A DNA stretch of 64,000 nt, from assembly GCA_003385635.1 (NCBI GenBank), contig QQUY01000002.1, positions 1 through 64,000 of the forward strand. Reading direction: 5' to 3'. Shown here piece after piece: positions 40,049-53,354 of the stretch (positions are counted from its first letter, which is position 1; every line of letters starts with the position of its first letter). A program made the position numbers and the translations under genes. The stretch is from Acidobacteriota bacterium. Its GTDB lineage: Bacteria; Acidobacteriota; Blastocatellia; Pyrinomonadales; Pyrinomonadaceae. The notes beneath the pieces are model-generated. The model worked only from the letters and a program-made list of their open reading frames with translations, searched no databases and was not told the DNA's origin.

Positions 40049-40852
40049 TCAGGCGCGGCCGATCACGGACAACAGGCGGCCCGTCTTGCCTAGCTTTCCT
40101 TTTTCCTTCCTGTATGAAAAGAAAAGGTCGGTCCGTTCCATCGTACAGAACGGCGCGGTCGATATCTTGTCACGATCCAATCCCATGCCGACTAACTGGT
40201 CTTGATTTGCGAGATGCAGATCAACGAGCGCGTGTCCGCCGTTCGTCTCAGAAAAGTATTCTTCACTTCTGGAAAACTCGGACGCGAACTGCTCGACGAC
40301 CTCCGGTCCCACCTCGTAGCACTCGCCCCCGGCAGCCGGTCCGATAGCAGCCACCAAATCTCCGGGGTTGCTACCGAACTCCGTCGCGAGTCCTTGCACA
40401 GCCTTTTCAACGATCCTTTGTAATGTTCCGCGCCATCCGGCGTGAACTGCGGAAAATGCGCCGCTCTCCGGATCTGCAATTAGCACGGGAACGCAGTCCG
40501 CTGTTTTCACGCCAACCAGCAATCCCTTCATTTCCGAAACAAGCGCATCGGCACGATCTTCTGTCTGGCTTGCGTCTTCGGAACTGCGCACCGTCTTGAC
40601 GGTGTCGCCGTGTATCTGCCATACGGTCGAAAGTCTGTATCCGTTACCAAAGAACTTCAGGAACCGGTGCCGGTTCTCTTCGATGTTCTCTTCCGTGTCT
40701 TCAGAATATCCGGCTAGGTTTAGGTCGTTCTCGGGGAACGGCGATACGCCGCCAAGACGCGTGGAGAACCCGTTCACGAATCCCGCCGCCTCCAGGTTGT
40801 TTGCGACAAGCAGCTTTAAACCGTTTTTTTCTTTCCAGTAGAAGTGATCCAT
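40049..40852 (-). CDS. pgeF: Laccase-domain protein PgeF/YfiH (peptidoglycan editing)
   Basis: A 267-residue cytoplasmic protein of the YfiH/multi-copper polyphenol oxidase-like family. The family corrects UDP-MurNAc tripeptide errors, and some members also have purine nucleoside phosphorylase activity. Conserved residues are FSTRLGGVSPFP, the His in TVWQIHGDTV, the Cys in VKTADCVPVLI, and HAGWRGTLQRIVEKAV, followed by IGPAAGGECYEVGPEVV and the late Cys in ISTAPFCTMER. The order H-C-H of the metal site is intact. It is divergent from acpS; the gap holds heptad repeats only. Confidence 0.9.
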   Translation of the reverse strand: MDHFYWKEKNGLKLLVANNLEAAGFVNGFSTRLGGVSPFPENDLNLAGYSEDTEENIEENRHRFLKFFGNGYRLSTVWQIHGDTVKTVRSSEDASQTEDRADALVSEMKGLLVGVKTADCVPVLIADPESGAFSAVHAGWRGTLQRIVEKAVQGLATEFGSNPGDLVAAIGPAAGGECYEVGPEVVEQFASEFSRSEEYFSETNGGHALVDLHLANQDQLVGMGLDRDKISTAPFCTMERTDLFFSYRKEKGKLGKTGRLLSVIGRA

Positions 40853-40875
40853 TTGAGAAGAATTCAGGAGTCAGG

Positions 40876-40999
40876 AGGTTCCAAGTTCCAGATTCCGAGT
40901 TCCAGGTTCCAAGTTCAGAGTTGCAGGGGTTGCGACTTACCTCTGACTCCTGACTCCTGACTCCCGACTCCCGACTTCTGACTTCTGACTTCTGACTTC
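40876..40999. repeat. Two heptad arrays in the pgeF-acpS divergent spacer
   Basis: Array one, 40876-40924, has seven units in register (AGGTTCC, AAGTTCC, AGATTCC, GAGTTCC, AGGTTCC, AAGTTCA, GAGTTGC). Array two, 40944-40999, has eight units (TGACTCC three times, CGACTCC, CGACTTC, TGACTTC three times). Here the arrays lie between two gene starts and not at a stop codon. The second ends 18 bp before the acpS GTG, so it overlaps the region where its promoter should be. Confidence 0.85.
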
Positions 41000-41017
41000 T
41001 TAAGCTATGCTCATTCC

Positions 41018-41395
41018 GTGATCGTATCCATCGGTACCGACATCATCGAAGTCTACCGCATCCGCGAGACCATCGAAAGAACTCCAAGGTTTCTCGAGCG
41101 AGTCTATACAGAAGCCGAAAGAGAGTACTGCGAGGCGAAAGGAGCGGCGGCGGCGCAATCCTACGCGGCACGTTTTGCGGCAAAAGAAGCGTTCTTAAAA
41201 GCGCTGAAGACGGGCTGGCGGGGAGAGATCGCTTGGCACAATATCGAGATCAAGGTGGATGATCAGGGAGCACCTCTCATTGAGGCGACGGGAGAGGCGA
41301 AAGTGGTCCTCGACAGGATGGGAGCGACCCGCATTCACGTGTCCTTGTCGCATACCCACGAACACGCGACTGCGCAGGTGGTCCTAGAGCGGTGA
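41018..41395 (+). CDS. acpS: Holo-[acyl-carrier-protein] synthase AcpS
   Basis: A 125-residue phosphopantetheinyl transferase that attaches 4'-phosphopantetheine from CoA to apo-ACP. Family motifs are complete: IGTDIIEVYRI with the magnesium Asp at residue 8, ARFAAKEAFLKAL with the catalytic Glu near residue 58, and the terminal VSLSHTHEHATAQVVLE. GTG is the start that matches the family N terminus. The last codons (GAG CGG TGA GC) already match the heptad unit that forms the array downstream. Confidence 0.95.
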   Translation: MIVSIGTDIIEVYRIRETIERTPRFLERVYTEAEREYCEAKGAAAAQSYAARFAAKEAFLKALKTGWRGEIAWHNIEIKVDDQGAPLIEATGEAKVVLDRMGATRIHVSLSHTHEHATAQVVLER

Positions 41396-41398
41396 GCT

Positions 41399-41748
41399 GT
41401 TTAGCGTCGGGCTTGCCCGCTGTGTGAGCAGTGAGCGGTGAGCGGTGAGCGGTGAGCGGTGAGCGGACGGTACGAATCGCGCAAGCAAGGGGTTTCGTCC
41501 TAACGTTCGCGTAGCGACCGGAATCGCTTTCCCAACCGGCCGCACTTTTTATCGGGTTCGGTTACCGCATCGATAATCTGCAAGCGAGAGTCTCCAGCCT
41601 TCACGCCGATCAATAGGCGGTTGACTCGAAGAAACGTGTTTTCGCCATTCGTGATGGGAACTGCCAAGAACAATGAACAGCCCGGTTCGTTTCCGCAGAG
41701 TCCTAGCCTACTAGTTACCGTTTGCGGGCAAGCCCGCCGCTAAACGGC
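41399..41748. repeat. Inverted-repeat-bounded spacer element with heptad array
   Basis: The convergent spacer between acpS and the zinc-ribbon gene has no gene. It is bounded by an inverted pair: GTTTAGCG(T)CGGGCTTGCCCGC at 41399-41420, and its complement GCGGGCAAGCCCGCCGCTAAAC at 41727-41748, with one mismatch over 22 bp. Each arm also contains its own GCGGGC/GCCCGC hairpin. Just inside the left arm is a heptad array at 41424-41465 (GTGAGCA, then five GTGAGCG). The middle (41466-41726) shows nothing recognisable. It resembles a small non-autonomous element or a paired REP palindrome. Confidence 0.65.
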
Positions 41749-41752
41749 CAGT

Positions 41753-41780
41753 CGCTCATCGCTCACTGCTTGCTGCTCAC
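41753..41780 (-). repeat. Heptad array downstream of the zinc-ribbon/L7-L12-like gene
   Basis: Four in-register units on the plus strand: CGCTCAT, CGCTCAC, TGCTTGC, TGCTCAC. In the sense of the adjacent minus-strand gene they read GTGAGCA, GCAAGCA, GTGAGCG, ATGAGCG, the same family as the array after acpS. They begin 8 bp after that gene's stop. Both convergent genes therefore carry GTGAGCx heptads on their own coding strand. Confidence 0.75.
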
Positions 41781-41788
41781 TATAGAAA

Positions 41789-42283
41789 CTATTCTCCCAG
41801 CACCATTACCGCTATCGCGATGCCCATCGCGATCAGCGCTGCGACGATCACAAGAGCCATTCTGCCCGGATTCTGAGCTTCGGCTTTTGCGTCGGGATAT
41901 ATTGACTGCGGCTGCTGTTCCTGCAGCGCCTGATAGTTCTGCTGAAGCGCCGACCGCGAAACGTCCGGCTTTCTGCCGCGCTGCATTGCATCGACCGCAT
42001 CTTTGGCGTCGGCCAATCCCGTGCCGAATGTTTCCCTGAACATCGCTATAGCGTTGATCTTGTTTCCCGCCTGGAGTTCTTTCTGGATCTCCGCCAGGCG
42101 TAGATCCCTCTGTTCTTTCAGGGAGTATTCGGTCGGGTCGGCATCGATCATTTCAGCCTGATGCACCGTGTCTGAGGGAACCATTATCTTTCCCTTGCAG
42201 TGGTAGCAAGTCTGAAAGGTCGGATCGCCCGGACGGTATTCAAGTGGTTTGAGACACGACGGACACTGATATGCGATACTCAT
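41789..42283 (-). CDS. Zinc-ribbon protein with L7/L12-like segment and C-terminal membrane helix
   Basis: A 164-residue protein. Residues 7-30 carry two CxxC knuckles (CPSC and CYHC) of a zinc ribbon. Residues 60-105 read LRLAEIQKELQAGNKINAIAMFRETFGTGLADAKDAVDAM, a helix-loop-helix like the C-terminal domain of ribosomal protein L7/L12 (GLxxAKxxV motif), which other bacterial membrane proteins use as a small interaction domain. The last 25 residues (MALVIVAALIAMGIAIAVMVL) form one tail-anchor helix. It is therefore probably a cytoplasm-facing tail-anchored protein. Function unknown. Confidence 0.75.
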   Translation of the reverse strand: MSIAYQCPSCLKPLEYRPGDPTFQTCYHCKGKIMVPSDTVHQAEMIDADPTEYSLKEQRDLRLAEIQKELQAGNKINAIAMFRETFGTGLADAKDAVDAMQRGRKPDVSRSALQQNYQALQEQQPQSIYPDAKAEAQNPGRMALVIVAALIAMGIAIAVMVLGE

Positions 42284-42338
42284 AATTCACTCCCGCGACC
42301 ATTAACGCGACAGCGCGAAAACACGAGGTCCAATCACG

Positions 42339-42872
42339 ATGAAAAAGTTATTTCCGGCCGCTTTCCTGTTCATTCTAGCATTTACACTTGGCGCGTTCGC
42401 ACAGGACGGCGGTTCTTCTCGCGACAGGGCGGTCGCTTTGGCCAAAGAAAAGGAGCAGGAGGTGCGTGCCGCATTCGACCGGCTGATCGAGGGAATCCGT
42501 CAGGCGGACGTCGAGAAAGTGATGAGTGTCTATCACAACGATGACCGTACGTTGTTCTTCAACTTCAACGGAACCGCGACGATAGGCTGGCAGCAGATGT
42601 ACGAGAACCGCAAGTCGTCGTACGCTAAACGCGCGAACACCTCTATCGAGCCCACAGGCGTACGCGTCGAGATCCTGAGCCCGACCTCGGCCTACGTTTC
42701 GTGTAAGTGGAAACAAACGCAAGAGTTTGAGGGCAAGCTTGAACAATCGTCCGGACGGATGACGCTGGTCTTCAAGGACTTCGGCGAGGGATGGAAGATC
42801 GTTCATCTTCACACCTCACCCGACACCTTTCCTTCGGCGGTGATGGTCCCGGCGTCCGAGAACGATCAATGA
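42339..42872 (+). CDS. Exported SnoaL/DUF4440-type NTF2-like protein
   Basis: A 177-residue protein with signal peptide (AAFLFILAFTLGAFAQ) and one NTF2-like domain. VRAAFDRLIEGIRQADVEKVMSVYHNDD forms the opening helices, and SAYVSCKWKQTQEFEGKL and MTLVFKDFGEGWKIVHLHTS the closing sheet. The pattern W-KIVH-HTS is typical of DUF4440/SnoaL_3 proteins. It may bind a small hydrophobic ligand in the periplasm. It starts 55 bp from the divergent zinc-ribbon gene. Its stop codon TGA is the first part of a heptad array. Confidence 0.8.
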   Translation: MKKLFPAAFLFILAFTLGAFAQDGGSSRDRAVALAKEKEQEVRAAFDRLIEGIRQADVEKVMSVYHNDDRTLFFNFNGTATIGWQQMYENRKSSYAKRANTSIEPTGVRVEILSPTSAYVSCKWKQTQEFEGKLEQSSGRMTLVFKDFGEGWKIVHLHTSPDTFPSAVMVPASENDQ

Positions 42873-42905
42873 GTTCCGAGTTCCGGCTTTCAAATTCCAG
42901 GTTCC
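42870..42905 (+). repeat. Heptad array starting in the stop codon of the SnoaL-type gene
   Basis: From the TGA stop (42870-42872) five in-register units run to 42905: GAGTTCC, GAGTTCC, GGCTTTC, AAATTCC, AGGTTCC. They belong to the same GTTCC family as the array at 40.9 kb. No hairpin with a T-run follows. Confidence 0.75.
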
Positions 42906-43044
42906 GGGGGTATTGGCCGCTCCCGTTTACCAGTCGGTAGCAGCAAGGCGGGTTCCTGTGGCTGAGGCCAGCCAAAGCTTCACGCTTTCCGGCGCGACGC
43001 TGAAGTTGCAAAGTAGATCTCACGATCAGAGCCTGTGGGGTCGA

Positions 43045-43425: not shown

Positions 43426-43472
43426 CCGGGCAGGCCCGGCGCTAAAGAAGGACCCACCCGTAAACGGGTGGG
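43426..43472. repeat. Two hairpins followed by CTAAA
   Basis: GCCGGGCAGGCCCGGC followed by GCTAAA (43426-43447), and CCCACCCGTAAACGGGTGGG followed by GCTAAAC (43453-43479). The second hairpin recurs at 45542-45561 and, with one change, at 45683-45702. The first resembles the inverted arms at 41.4 and 41.7 kb. Together they suggest one palindrome-plus-CTAAA family. Confidence 0.7.
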
Positions 43473-43483
43473 CTAAACAAACT

Positions 43484-43595
43484 CTTACTGCTCACCGCTC
43501 GCCGCTCACCGCTTACTGCTCACCGCTCACCGCTTACTGCTCACCGCTTACTGCTCACCGCTCACTGCTCACCGCTTACTGCTCACTGCTCACTC
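43484..43595 (-). repeat. Sixteen-unit heptad array over the DUF885 stop codon
   Basis: The longest array in the window: sixteen 7-bp units without a break, of the types CTCACCG, CTTACTG, CTCACTG and one CTCGCCG. In the sense of the DUF885 gene the units read CGGTGAG, CAGTAAG, CAGTGAG. The gene's stop codon lies at 43583-43585, so the last two units encode its final residues (S-E-Q). The unit is the same family as those after acpS and the neighbouring zinc-ribbon gene. Confidence 0.9.
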
Positions 43596-45352
43596 TTCGA
43601 AGCGACCCACTCATCCACGTGCCGTTCGAGAATATCCAGAGGAACGGCGCCGGAGAGTAGTACCACGTCGTGGAATTCCTTCAGGTCAAACCTGTCGCCG
43701 AGTTCACGTGTCGCCCTCGCACGCAGCTCTTTGATCTTCAGTTCACCGATCTTGTAGGCAAGCGCCTGACCCGGCCAGGCGATGTAGCGGTCGATCTCGT
43801 TCACGATGTCCTGCTCGGTCTTTGCAGCATTGTCCATAAAGAAATCGATCGCCTTCTGCCGATCCCACTTGTAATAGTGGATACCCGTGTCGACGACCAG
43901 TCTGACCGCGCGCCACATCTCGTAGGTCAACTGCCCAAATTTATCGTAGGGATCCTCGTAGAGCCCCATCTCTTCACCCAACGACTCGCTGTACAGTCCC
44001 CAGCCTTCCGTGAAAGCCGTATAGCCGCCAAACTTACGGAAATTCGGAACTTCGCCGAGCTCCTGCTGAAGGGCGATCTGCAGATGATGACCCGGGACGG
44101 CCTCGTGGATCGAAAGAGCCATCATTTCCCATTTAGGCCTGGTTTCCGGTTTGTAGAGATTCACATAGTACGAACCAGCTCGCGAACCATCCGCTGCCGG
44201 ACCGTTGTAATAAGCCGTCGTCGTATCGGGAGCGATCGCATCGGGGATCGGAACTACGCCGTAAGGCATTCTCGGCAGTGTCCGAAAGACCTTTACGACT
44301 TCCGGGTCGATCCTCTTCGATATCGCGCGATACCCTGCCAAAAGCTCTTCAGGCGTCTCGTAAAAGAATTGCTTGTCAGTCCTTAGGTGTTCAAAGAATG
44401 CCTTCAGATCTCCTTTGAATCCGACCTGCTCTCTGATCTTCTCCATTTCCCCCCGAATGCGCTTCACCTCTGAAAGCCCCTTTTCGTGGATCTCCTTCGG
44501 GGTCATTTCCGTCGTAGTGAATCTACGCGCAAGGAACGAGTAGTACTCGCCGCCCTGCGGATGCTGCCATATGCCCGCATCCGGGTAACAGGCTGGCAAA
44601 TACTCCTCAACGAAGAACTTCTTAAACTGCATGTACTGCGGAATGATGTTCTCCGCGATCGCTTCGGATGCGGAATTCTTCAGGCGTGTTCGGTCGGCTT
44701 CCGGAATCGAGTCGTGAAAGTTCCGGAACGGCCTGTAGAAAGGACTATCTTCAGGTTTGTCCACGATCTGGACGTCGATCTGTGCAGGAACTCGCTCAAG
44801 CACCTTTCTGGCAAGTACCGATCGTTGTTTGATCCCTTCGCGCATGACGGCGATCGTGTTCTGCATACGGGCGGGGAAGGCGTTCAAACGCGCGATCCAA
44901 TCCTCGTAATCTTTTACCGTCGTGAAAGGCAGATTCCTCGCAAGGCCGTCCGCCGTCTGGATACCGCCCCGCTGGTTCAAAGGCGTGAGGTGCCCTAGGT
45001 ACTTGAAGGCTTCGATTCCCGCCTCAAGGTCCTTGAGATAAAGGTCGTAATTGAGCCTGTCGCTTGCGGACAACTGAGACCGGTCGATCGCCTTGAGTCT
45101 TCCCCGGGCAGCAACGTCGTCCTTATGGCGCTTTTCGATCGCGGCAACAGAGTTGTCACCCCACTTATCGTTGTAACGCTTGTCTCCGAGATAGGAAGCA
45201 AATGTCGGGTTCTCTTCAAGACCCTTCTCCCATTGCTCATCAAAGAAAGAGTACAGTTGTCGCGTCGCCTCGTTGTCGTGGGATCTGTCTGTCTGAGCGT
45301 TAAATGAAACGGCGAGAATGATGGTCAACAGTGCTATCGAAACCAAACGCAT
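43583..45352 (-). CDS. Exported DUF885 family metallopeptidase-like protein
   Basis: A 589-residue protein with signal peptide (LVSIALLTIILAVSFNAQT). The DUF885 core is complete: LSIHEAVPGHHLQIALQQE gives the HExxxH-type zinc site (HEAVPGHH), and YTAFTEGWGLYSESLGEEMGLY provides the following Glu. MWRAVRLVVDTGIHYYKWD and IDRYIAWPGQALAYKIGELKI complete the family's C-terminal core. Such proteins are predicted carboxypeptidases related to M32. The C terminus (SKSEQ) is written by the heptad array, so the natural end may have been altered when the array formed. Upstream, 460 bp hold only repeats and promoter space. Confidence 0.88.
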   Translation of the reverse strand: MRLVSIALLTIILAVSFNAQTDRSHDNEATRQLYSFFDEQWEKGLEENPTFASYLGDKRYNDKWGDNSVAAIEKRHKDDVAARGRLKAIDRSQLSASDRLNYDLYLKDLEAGIEAFKYLGHLTPLNQRGGIQTADGLARNLPFTTVKDYEDWIARLNAFPARMQNTIAVMREGIKQRSVLARKVLERVPAQIDVQIVDKPEDSPFYRPFRNFHDSIPEADRTRLKNSASEAIAENIIPQYMQFKKFFVEEYLPACYPDAGIWQHPQGGEYYSFLARRFTTTEMTPKEIHEKGLSEVKRIRGEMEKIREQVGFKGDLKAFFEHLRTDKQFFYETPEELLAGYRAISKRIDPEVVKVFRTLPRMPYGVVPIPDAIAPDTTTAYYNGPAADGSRAGSYYVNLYKPETRPKWEMMALSIHEAVPGHHLQIALQQELGEVPNFRKFGGYTAFTEGWGLYSESLGEEMGLYEDPYDKFGQLTYEMWRAVRLVVDTGIHYYKWDRQKAIDFFMDNAAKTEQDIVNEIDRYIAWPGQALAYKIGELKIKELRARATRELGDRFDLKEFHDVVLLSGAVPLDILERHVDEWVASKSEQ

Positions 45353-45541: not shown

Positions 45542-45788
45542 CCCACCCGTAAACGGGTGGGCTAAACATCTTGGCGGGTTGGGCTAATTACCTCGGCGGG
45601 TTGGGCTAAACATTTTGGCGGGTTGGACCAAATACCTCGGCGGATTGGCTAAACTTCGTAGTAGCGGAGGCAAAACGAGAAACCCACCCGTGAACGGGTG
45701 GGCTAAACATTTCGGCCAGTGGACTAATCATCTTCGCCGCGTGGGTTAAACATCTCCACGGGGTCGGCTAAACAGCTTCTTCTCTTTG
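45542..45788. repeat. Degenerate 22-bp tandem array with embedded CCCACCCGT hairpins
   Basis: Units start at 45561, 45583, 45605, 45627, 45702, 45723, 45745 and 45767. Each is 21-22 bp, opening with GCTAAACAT or a variant (GCTAATTAC, ACCAAATAC, ACTAATCAT, GTTAAACAT) and closing with GGCGGGTTGG or a variant. Two copies of hairpin CCCACCCGT(A/G)AACGGGTGGG (45542-45561, 45683-45702) sit directly in front of a GCTAAAC unit. A second kind of repeat, the heptads at 45784-45811, follows at once. The remaining gap from 45353 to 45541 shows no gene. Confidence 0.8.
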
Positions 45789-53174: not shown

Positions 53175-53282
53175 TGCAACGGTGTTCGACAAGCTTTAGC
53201 TTGTCGCTACTCCAACGATCGAAACAACACGGCGCAAGCTGAGGCTCGCGCGACAGCAGACCGCCGCTCCTCGGACTGAATA

Positions 53283-53354
53283 GACCCAACAGACCTAACC
53301 GACCCAACAGACCCAATCGACCCAACAGACTAAGGAGACTCGACAGACCTACGG
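53283..53354. repeat. Nonamer array upstream of trmFO
   Basis: Eight 9-bp units in perfect register: GACCCAACA, GACCTAACC, GACCCAACA, GACCCAATC, GACCCAACA, GACTAAGGA, GACTCGACA, GACCTACGG. It ends 27 bp before the trmFO ATG, so it occupies the expected promoter region. It is not associated with a stop codon. Confidence 0.85.

Follow-up and report, generated by a model that had tools for sequence, protein, structure and literature searches.

Tandem heptanucleotide repeats (heptads) of about eight word families and REP-type hairpins of an Aridibacter-like acidobacterium read 5' to 3' away from coding sequence, and they do so at both ends of genes. We analyzed a stretch of 64,000 nucleotides (the window) together with larger samples of the same genome and with relatives. 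The spacer between the convergent genes acpS and a zinc-ribbon gene is a typical intergenic region of this organism, built from these two dispersed repeat kinds (Table 1).

The two convergent genes are each trailed by GTGAGC heptads on their own strand, as the initial annotation had described, and we confirmed this for the tract found by TRF beside acpS and for the imperfect heptads beside the zinc-ribbon gene. The 22-bp inverted pair that it had seen bracketing most of the spacer was also borne out. The pair has the form GTTTAGCG[T/G]CGGGCTTGCCCGC, with one mismatch, and sits within a longer 34-nt inverted repeat that is 82% complementary. Each arm holds a short internal hairpin (GCGGG-CTTG-CCCGC), and the left arm consists of a GTTTAG head and this hairpin with the first stem base altered. 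A search of the 64-kb window with the 21-mer arm, allowing ≤3 mismatches, found 3 copies against a chance expectation of 0.01. The spacer 5' of acpS is also full of heptads, with different words (CTGACTC, GTTCCAA), so repeats are not limited to 3' ends, and these heptads are likewise directed away from the adjacent genes. A search of positions 40800-42400 against Rfam gave no match. The zinc ribbon of the convergent gene's product is seen as CPSC...CYHC, and the sole Pfam match of that gene is below threshold (Ribosomal_L12 C-terminal, 2.3e-4). The protein has a hydrophobic segment at its C-terminus, and the gene is duplicated or triplicated in two relatives (G001 and G003).

Table 1. Genes and repeats in and around the acpS/zinc-ribbon spacer (positions in the window).
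Feature	Position	Strand	Basis or remark
Heptads of other words (GTTCCAA type on +; GAGTCAG type on -)	40878-41000	both	divergent spacer 5' of acpS
acpS (4'-phosphopantetheinyl transferase)	41018-41395	+	Pfam ACPS PF01648, 2.8e-18; sequence
GGTGAGC heptad enclosing the acpS stop TGA (41393-41395)	41391-41397	+	sequence
Left arm, REP-type element GTTTAGCGTCGGGCTTGCCCGC, directed away from acpS	41399-41420	+	
Heptad tract (GTGAGC[AG])x6, directed away from acpS	41424-41466	+	TRF (6.1 copies, score 79)
Single-copy spacer interior, ~250 bp	41472-41720	none	search of genome and relatives
Right arm, REP-type element GTTTAGCGGCGGGCTTGCCCGC, directed away from zinc-ribbon gene	41724-41745	-	
Imperfect heptad tract GTGAGCAGCAAGCAGTGAGCGATGAGCGA, directed away from zinc-ribbon gene	41752-41780	-	sequence; about four imperfect heptads directly 3' of the zinc-ribbon stop
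Zinc-ribbon protein, weak L7/L12 C-terminal similarity	41789-42283	-	sub-threshold profile match
SnoaL-like gene, divergent pair with zinc-ribbon gene	42339-42872	+	
Short heptad run GAGTTCCGAGTTCCG from the SnoaL stop	42871-42885	+	in second inversion-border spacer (42873-43044)
Degenerate arm copy TTTAGCGCCGGGCCTGCCCGG beyond DUF6142-like gene	43426-43446	-	
15-copy GTGAGC/GTAAGC tract, directed away from DUF885 gene	43490-43594	-	overlaps 3' end of DUF885 gene (43583-45352, -)

Judged by its sequence, the arm is a solo REP-type hairpin with putative mobilization by a RAYT. A pattern search of the whole genome (4.13 Mb, 3 contigs) found 37 exact copies and about 54 with ≤2 mismatches, and the reversed arm, used as a control, had zero matches. 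The possibility raised in the initial annotation that the arm is unique to this spacer did not hold. All 30 copies examined were intergenic, 22 at 3' ends and 8 at 5' ends. Most copies stand alone, and a few form direct or inverted pairs. In a public genome collection, exact copies were found only in Aridibacter famidurans and one Acidobacteria MAG; the arm is common in three relatives of the same genus (G004-G006). An unbiased count in a 1.26-Mb sample of the genome gave GTTTAG as the top enriched hexamer preceding intergenic hairpins (53 cases, 20-fold), and the GTTTAG-headed hairpins come in several variants, including GCGGGCTTGCCCGC (the arm), GCAGCGCTTGCGCTGC and CCCACCCGTTTACGGGTGGG. The arm is thus a palindrome with many extragenic copies; we call it REP-type, rather than a GTAG/CGTC REP, because its head is GTTTAG and not one of these tetranucleotides. 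No consistent T run follows the arms, so they do not qualify as intrinsic terminators. Elsewhere in the window (45554-45755) there are 22/44-bp tandem repeats with GGGCTAAAC that look like tandem GTTTAG-headed hairpins.

The GTTTAG-headed REP-type hairpins are probably spread by RAYT transposases. A RAYT-like gene (L136), whose product has 192 aa and the HVH motif of Y1 transposases, is flanked on either side by inverted copies of a sister family, GTTTAGA-GCAGCGCTTGCGCTGC (the GCAGCGC variant); inverted REPs around a gene are a hallmark of RAYTs (PMC2817692). The arm itself looks, by its sequence features, like a small mobile element. We found 10 Y1 (RAYT-like) transposase genes in the genome, including G000:C3:259787-260020 (L136) and G000:C2:211130-211375 (L135). 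Many of them have palindromes nearby, e.g., CCGTGGCCTGAAGGCCACGG and GGGCTCCTAACGGAGCCC, which suggests that this genome has more than one REP family, indeed several. None of the 10 genes has the arm's own type of hairpin next to it, and we counted this absence against our best explanation.

The heptads form a large class that is almost purely intergenic. In the 1.26-Mb sample, which is 30% of the genome and whose last third is denser in repeat-rich regions, we found 156 intergenic and 15 genic tracts of period 7, compared to ≤4 intergenic tracts each for periods 4-6 and 8. These tandem 7-bp units are built from about eight word families, among them GTGAGCG, GAGTCAG/GAGACAG, GTTCCAA, AATCGTG, CTGAGTA, TTGACCA, and AATTGA. 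The words GTGAGCG, GAGTCAG, GTTCCAA, and AATCGTG contain no G3 runs and therefore do not qualify as G-quadruplex-forming. Word families switch inside a single array with the 7-nt phase kept. There is also a period-9 intergenic class, e.g., AGACCCAAC (53279-53349 in the window), with 41 tracts in the genome sample versus ≤5 for periods 8, 10, and 11.

Heptad tracts were enriched at gene 3' ends. We called genes with our own simple hexamer-based caller, in which stops are exact and starts approximate. The edge of 47 of 143 tracts was ≤15 nt from a gene 3' end, compared to a mean of 16.9 and a maximum of 31 in 1000 permutations. At 5' ends there was no excess in proximity (13 tracts versus 11.7 expected). 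Tract density was highest in convergent spacers (1.33 per kb), followed by tandem spacers (0.89), and tracts avoided divergent spacers (0.36). Heptads overlapped the stop codon in 22 tracts. Where the word bears a stop, the tract covers the final codons and provides the stop itself; tracts of other words begin right after the native stop.

Both repeat kinds had the same polarity with respect to genes. Of the 30 arm copies scored, 29 were directed away from the nearest gene (22 of 22 at 3' ends and 7 of 8 at 5' ends). For heptads, we learned the orientation of each word at 3' ends and predicted the tract left out (n=47); 45 had the same orientation, 1 was opposite, and 1 was ambiguous. The orientation learned at 3' ends, when applied to tracts near 5' ends, gave 28 outward and 4 inward. 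When tracts ≤150 nt from a gene were scored by word family, 84 were outward and 12 inward, with the limit, common to all our orientation counts, that those from a single spacer are not fully independent. Pairwise sharing of words between spacers, which involves no training at 3' ends, agreed, with 143 tracts with the majority and 21 against. The heptads are on the coding strand near 3' ends and on the non-coding strand near 5' ends. Spacers between tandem genes contain both: 35 sense and 4 antisense in the first quarter, and 5 sense and 31 antisense in the second half. The polarity at 5' ends was also found in two other genomes, one of the same genus (G004; 8 outward and 0 inward, in a sample that includes contigs picked for arm hits) and one of another genus in the same family (G008; 12 outward and 0 inward).

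Polarity switches about once per spacer. We merged heptads and GTTTAG hairpins and determined the relative orientation of neighboring repeats (n=112 pairs): 38 pointed toward each other (-> <-), 39 and 32 pointed the same way (-> -> and <- <-, respectively), and 3 pointed away from each other (<- ->). For the last type the null mean was 28 and the minimum 13, and it is this scarcity that indicates about one switch per spacer. The inverted-repeat appearance of the acpS/zinc-ribbon spacer follows from polar repeats at both borders and a single polarity switch. The initial annotation had suggested a 3'-end device used by both transcripts. The enrichment and the sense orientation at 3' ends support this in part. 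Because the same words and hairpins are present in antisense near 5' ends, the rule is outward from the gene and not one for 3' ends only.

A polarity of this kind is already known for other heptamer repeats. In two Xanthomonas and in Nostoc, Rehm et al. (2015; PMC4692102) found outward polarity for the repeats GGGAATC and GGGGA(C/T)T, respectively, which lie on the coding strand near 3' ends and on the non-coding strand near 5' ends, often overlap stop codons, and commonly form convergent inverted pairs. The acidobacterial heptads have in common with these the period-7 intergenic tracts, the strand placement, the overlap with stops, and the convergent pairs. They differ in that about eight unrelated words coexist, most of them not quadruplex-forming, in that REP hairpins share the polarity, and in being from Acidobacteriota. 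The heptanucleotide tandem repeats (STRRs) of Calothrix and Nostoc are similar as 7-bp intergenic units, and GGAGTCAG occurs in Trichormus plasmid A. This word, abundant in the acidobacterium, forms a convergent pair in that plasmid of Trichormus variabilis (L256:43077-43135). In 850 kb of Nostocales plasmid DNA there were few heptad tracts. The TAACTGA repeats of marine Beggiatoaceae (PMC4679880) are also intergenic direct heptamer repeats, some over stop codons, but mostly face the downstream start codon, the opposite of the acidobacterial polarity at 5' ends. The arm resembles REPs with their RAYTs (PMC2817692, PMC3733652; GTAG/CGTC palindromes) in its short head, GC-rich hairpin, and many intergenic copies, and in that the related GTTTAGA family flanks a RAYT gene in inverted orientation. 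Unlike these, it has a GTTTAG head, lacks a RAYT next to its own hairpin variant, and is strongly polar. Among the intergenic tandem repeats of prokaryotes, tandem heptamers have been reported to be the most abundant, and "no clear clue" was seen as to their function (PMC6344855). Based on a search of the open-access literature, the many words, the inclusion of REPs, and the single switch per spacer appear to be new.

We tentatively favor the explanation that the elements are polar transcript-exit signals acting on the RNA that leaves a gene, and consider it plausible but short of probable. Elements in the sense orientation at 3' ends would halt or trim transcripts that read through and would protect the 3' end. 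Selection would favor this useful orientation there, hence the tracts located at the stop codon or across it. Upstream, a gene would tolerate elements in antisense only, as those in the opposite orientation would attenuate its own transcript. A model with sense favored at 3' ends and antisense tolerated upstream fits the enrichment at 3' ends only together with the polarity at both ends. REP hairpins stabilize RNA 3' ends (stated in PMC13289151), and transcripts start or stop more often at quadruplex-forming heptamer repeats (PMC4692102). Terminator-like sites were present at 8 of 71 heptad-bearing 3' ends and at 92 of 443 others, about half as often, a small difference that is not firm and only suggestive.

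Some observations count against transcript exit. In the data of Rehm et al. (PMC4692102), transcript ends were associated with repeats on either strand and not polarly. Within 41396-41788, the acpS/zinc-ribbon spacer has no site that resembles an intrinsic terminator (a T run directly after a GC hairpin), and its folding is mildly unusual on one strand only. Compared to shuffled sequences, the RNA of the + strand folded slightly better (z -2.9) and that of the - strand did not (z -1.5). This signal is weak for the folding unit that the initial annotation had proposed.

The main rival to the transcript-exit explanation, in our estimation unlikely, is outward growth at the DNA level, in which gene borders are the points from which tracts are laid down or extended 5' to 3', e.g., through templated addition to DNA ends during break repair, so that each spacer becomes two outward arms that meet once. 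This would account for the single polarity switch, even for tracts distant from genes, and for the change of word families in phase. It is also consistent with stop-less words beginning just past the stop and stop-bearing words cutting into the last codons, and with the acpS/zinc-ribbon spacer being at the border of a unique inversion. However, searches of the source genome with the Ku and reverse transcriptase (RVT_1) profiles gave no match at the thresholds used, and REP hairpins, which are no heptads, share the polarity. Relative to G004, spacers with tracts showed no clear excess of rearrangement: 5 were intact, 1 had an insertion, and 6 were flipped or possibly broken, compared to 34, 2, and 18 (flipped or broken) for spacers without tracts. 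The association of tracts with broken adjacency across 62 orthologue pairs was not significant. In addition, repeat spacers were more conserved than controls in the study of Rehm et al. (PMC4692102). The broader form of the idea, that one DNA process adds both heptads and REP hairpins 5' to 3' from gene borders, as two arms, in at least three bacterial phyla, we regard as improbable.

Filtering of selfish repeats by harm alone seems to us somewhat less likely than DNA-level growth of the tracts, though above its broader form. Insertion would be indiscriminate, and copies that point inward upstream of a gene would be purged for disturbing expression. The almost exclusively intergenic location of the repeats and the presence of a transposase for REPs fit with this. 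With such a filter, polarity should be seen mainly at 5' ends. It was, however, as strong or stronger at 3' ends for both arms and heptads, and the proximity enrichment was at 3' ends only.

The gene order at this locus differs among relatives. In G001, G003, and G004 it is TPR(-) CuOx(-) acpS(+) SnoaL(-) ZnR(+) ... DUF885(-), as far as the contigs extend, and a partial contig of G002 agrees. The divergent SnoaL/zinc-ribbon pair is inverted in the source genome, with the acpS/zinc-ribbon spacer and the spacer at 42873-43044 as borders; the zinc-ribbon orientation in G005 and G006 matches that in G001-G004. In G006 acpS alone is inverted, and small gene inversions recur at the locus 41018-42872 (loci compared: L140-L145). 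The spacer DNA is unrelated between species, yet it again consists of heptads and hairpins.

An inversion device, in which inverted repeats flanking the zinc-ribbon/SnoaL pair flip that pair, would explain this inversion, and both borders are indeed intergenic spacers with heptads. We consider it very unlikely, as the two border spacers have no common inverted repeat >9 bp, none of the neighboring genes that were identified is a recombinase, and tracts in general showed no significant association with rearrangement.

The polarity could also come from a filter by stop codons. A period-7 repeat that contains TGA has a stop in each of the three frames, and heptads in sense would survive by ending the ORF. 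The overlap of heptads with stop codons and the common TGA words (GTGAGC, ATTGA, and GTGAATC) are in line with this. However, words without a stop in sense had the same polarity at 3' ends, both GAGTCAG (TGA in antisense; 14:3) and GTTCCAA (no stop; 12:1), and 5' ends are polar too. These words and the 5'-end polarity rule out a stop-codon filter as the sole cause, and we give it slightly less weight than the inversion device as an explanation; it still contributes to where exactly TGA words start. Finally, a mobile unit or MITE that has the arms for its terminal inverted repeats, proposed in the initial annotation and resembling REP doublets in its inverted arms with the heads outside, is the least likely of all. 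The arms are mostly solo or in direct orientation, and heptads are present within the bracketed stretch as well as beyond it. The interior occurs only once in the genome and matches nothing in the relatives examined, whose spacers are unrelated and have neither an empty site nor a common boundary at the arms.

Heptads of many unrelated words follow the same polarity rule as a hairpin family unrelated to them, with one switch per spacer, which suggests that they have a cause in common, be it selective or mechanistic. As polar transcript-exit signals, the elements would be a non-canonical marking of gene borders. Polarity that arises at the DNA level would imply a hitherto unknown mode of spacer building.
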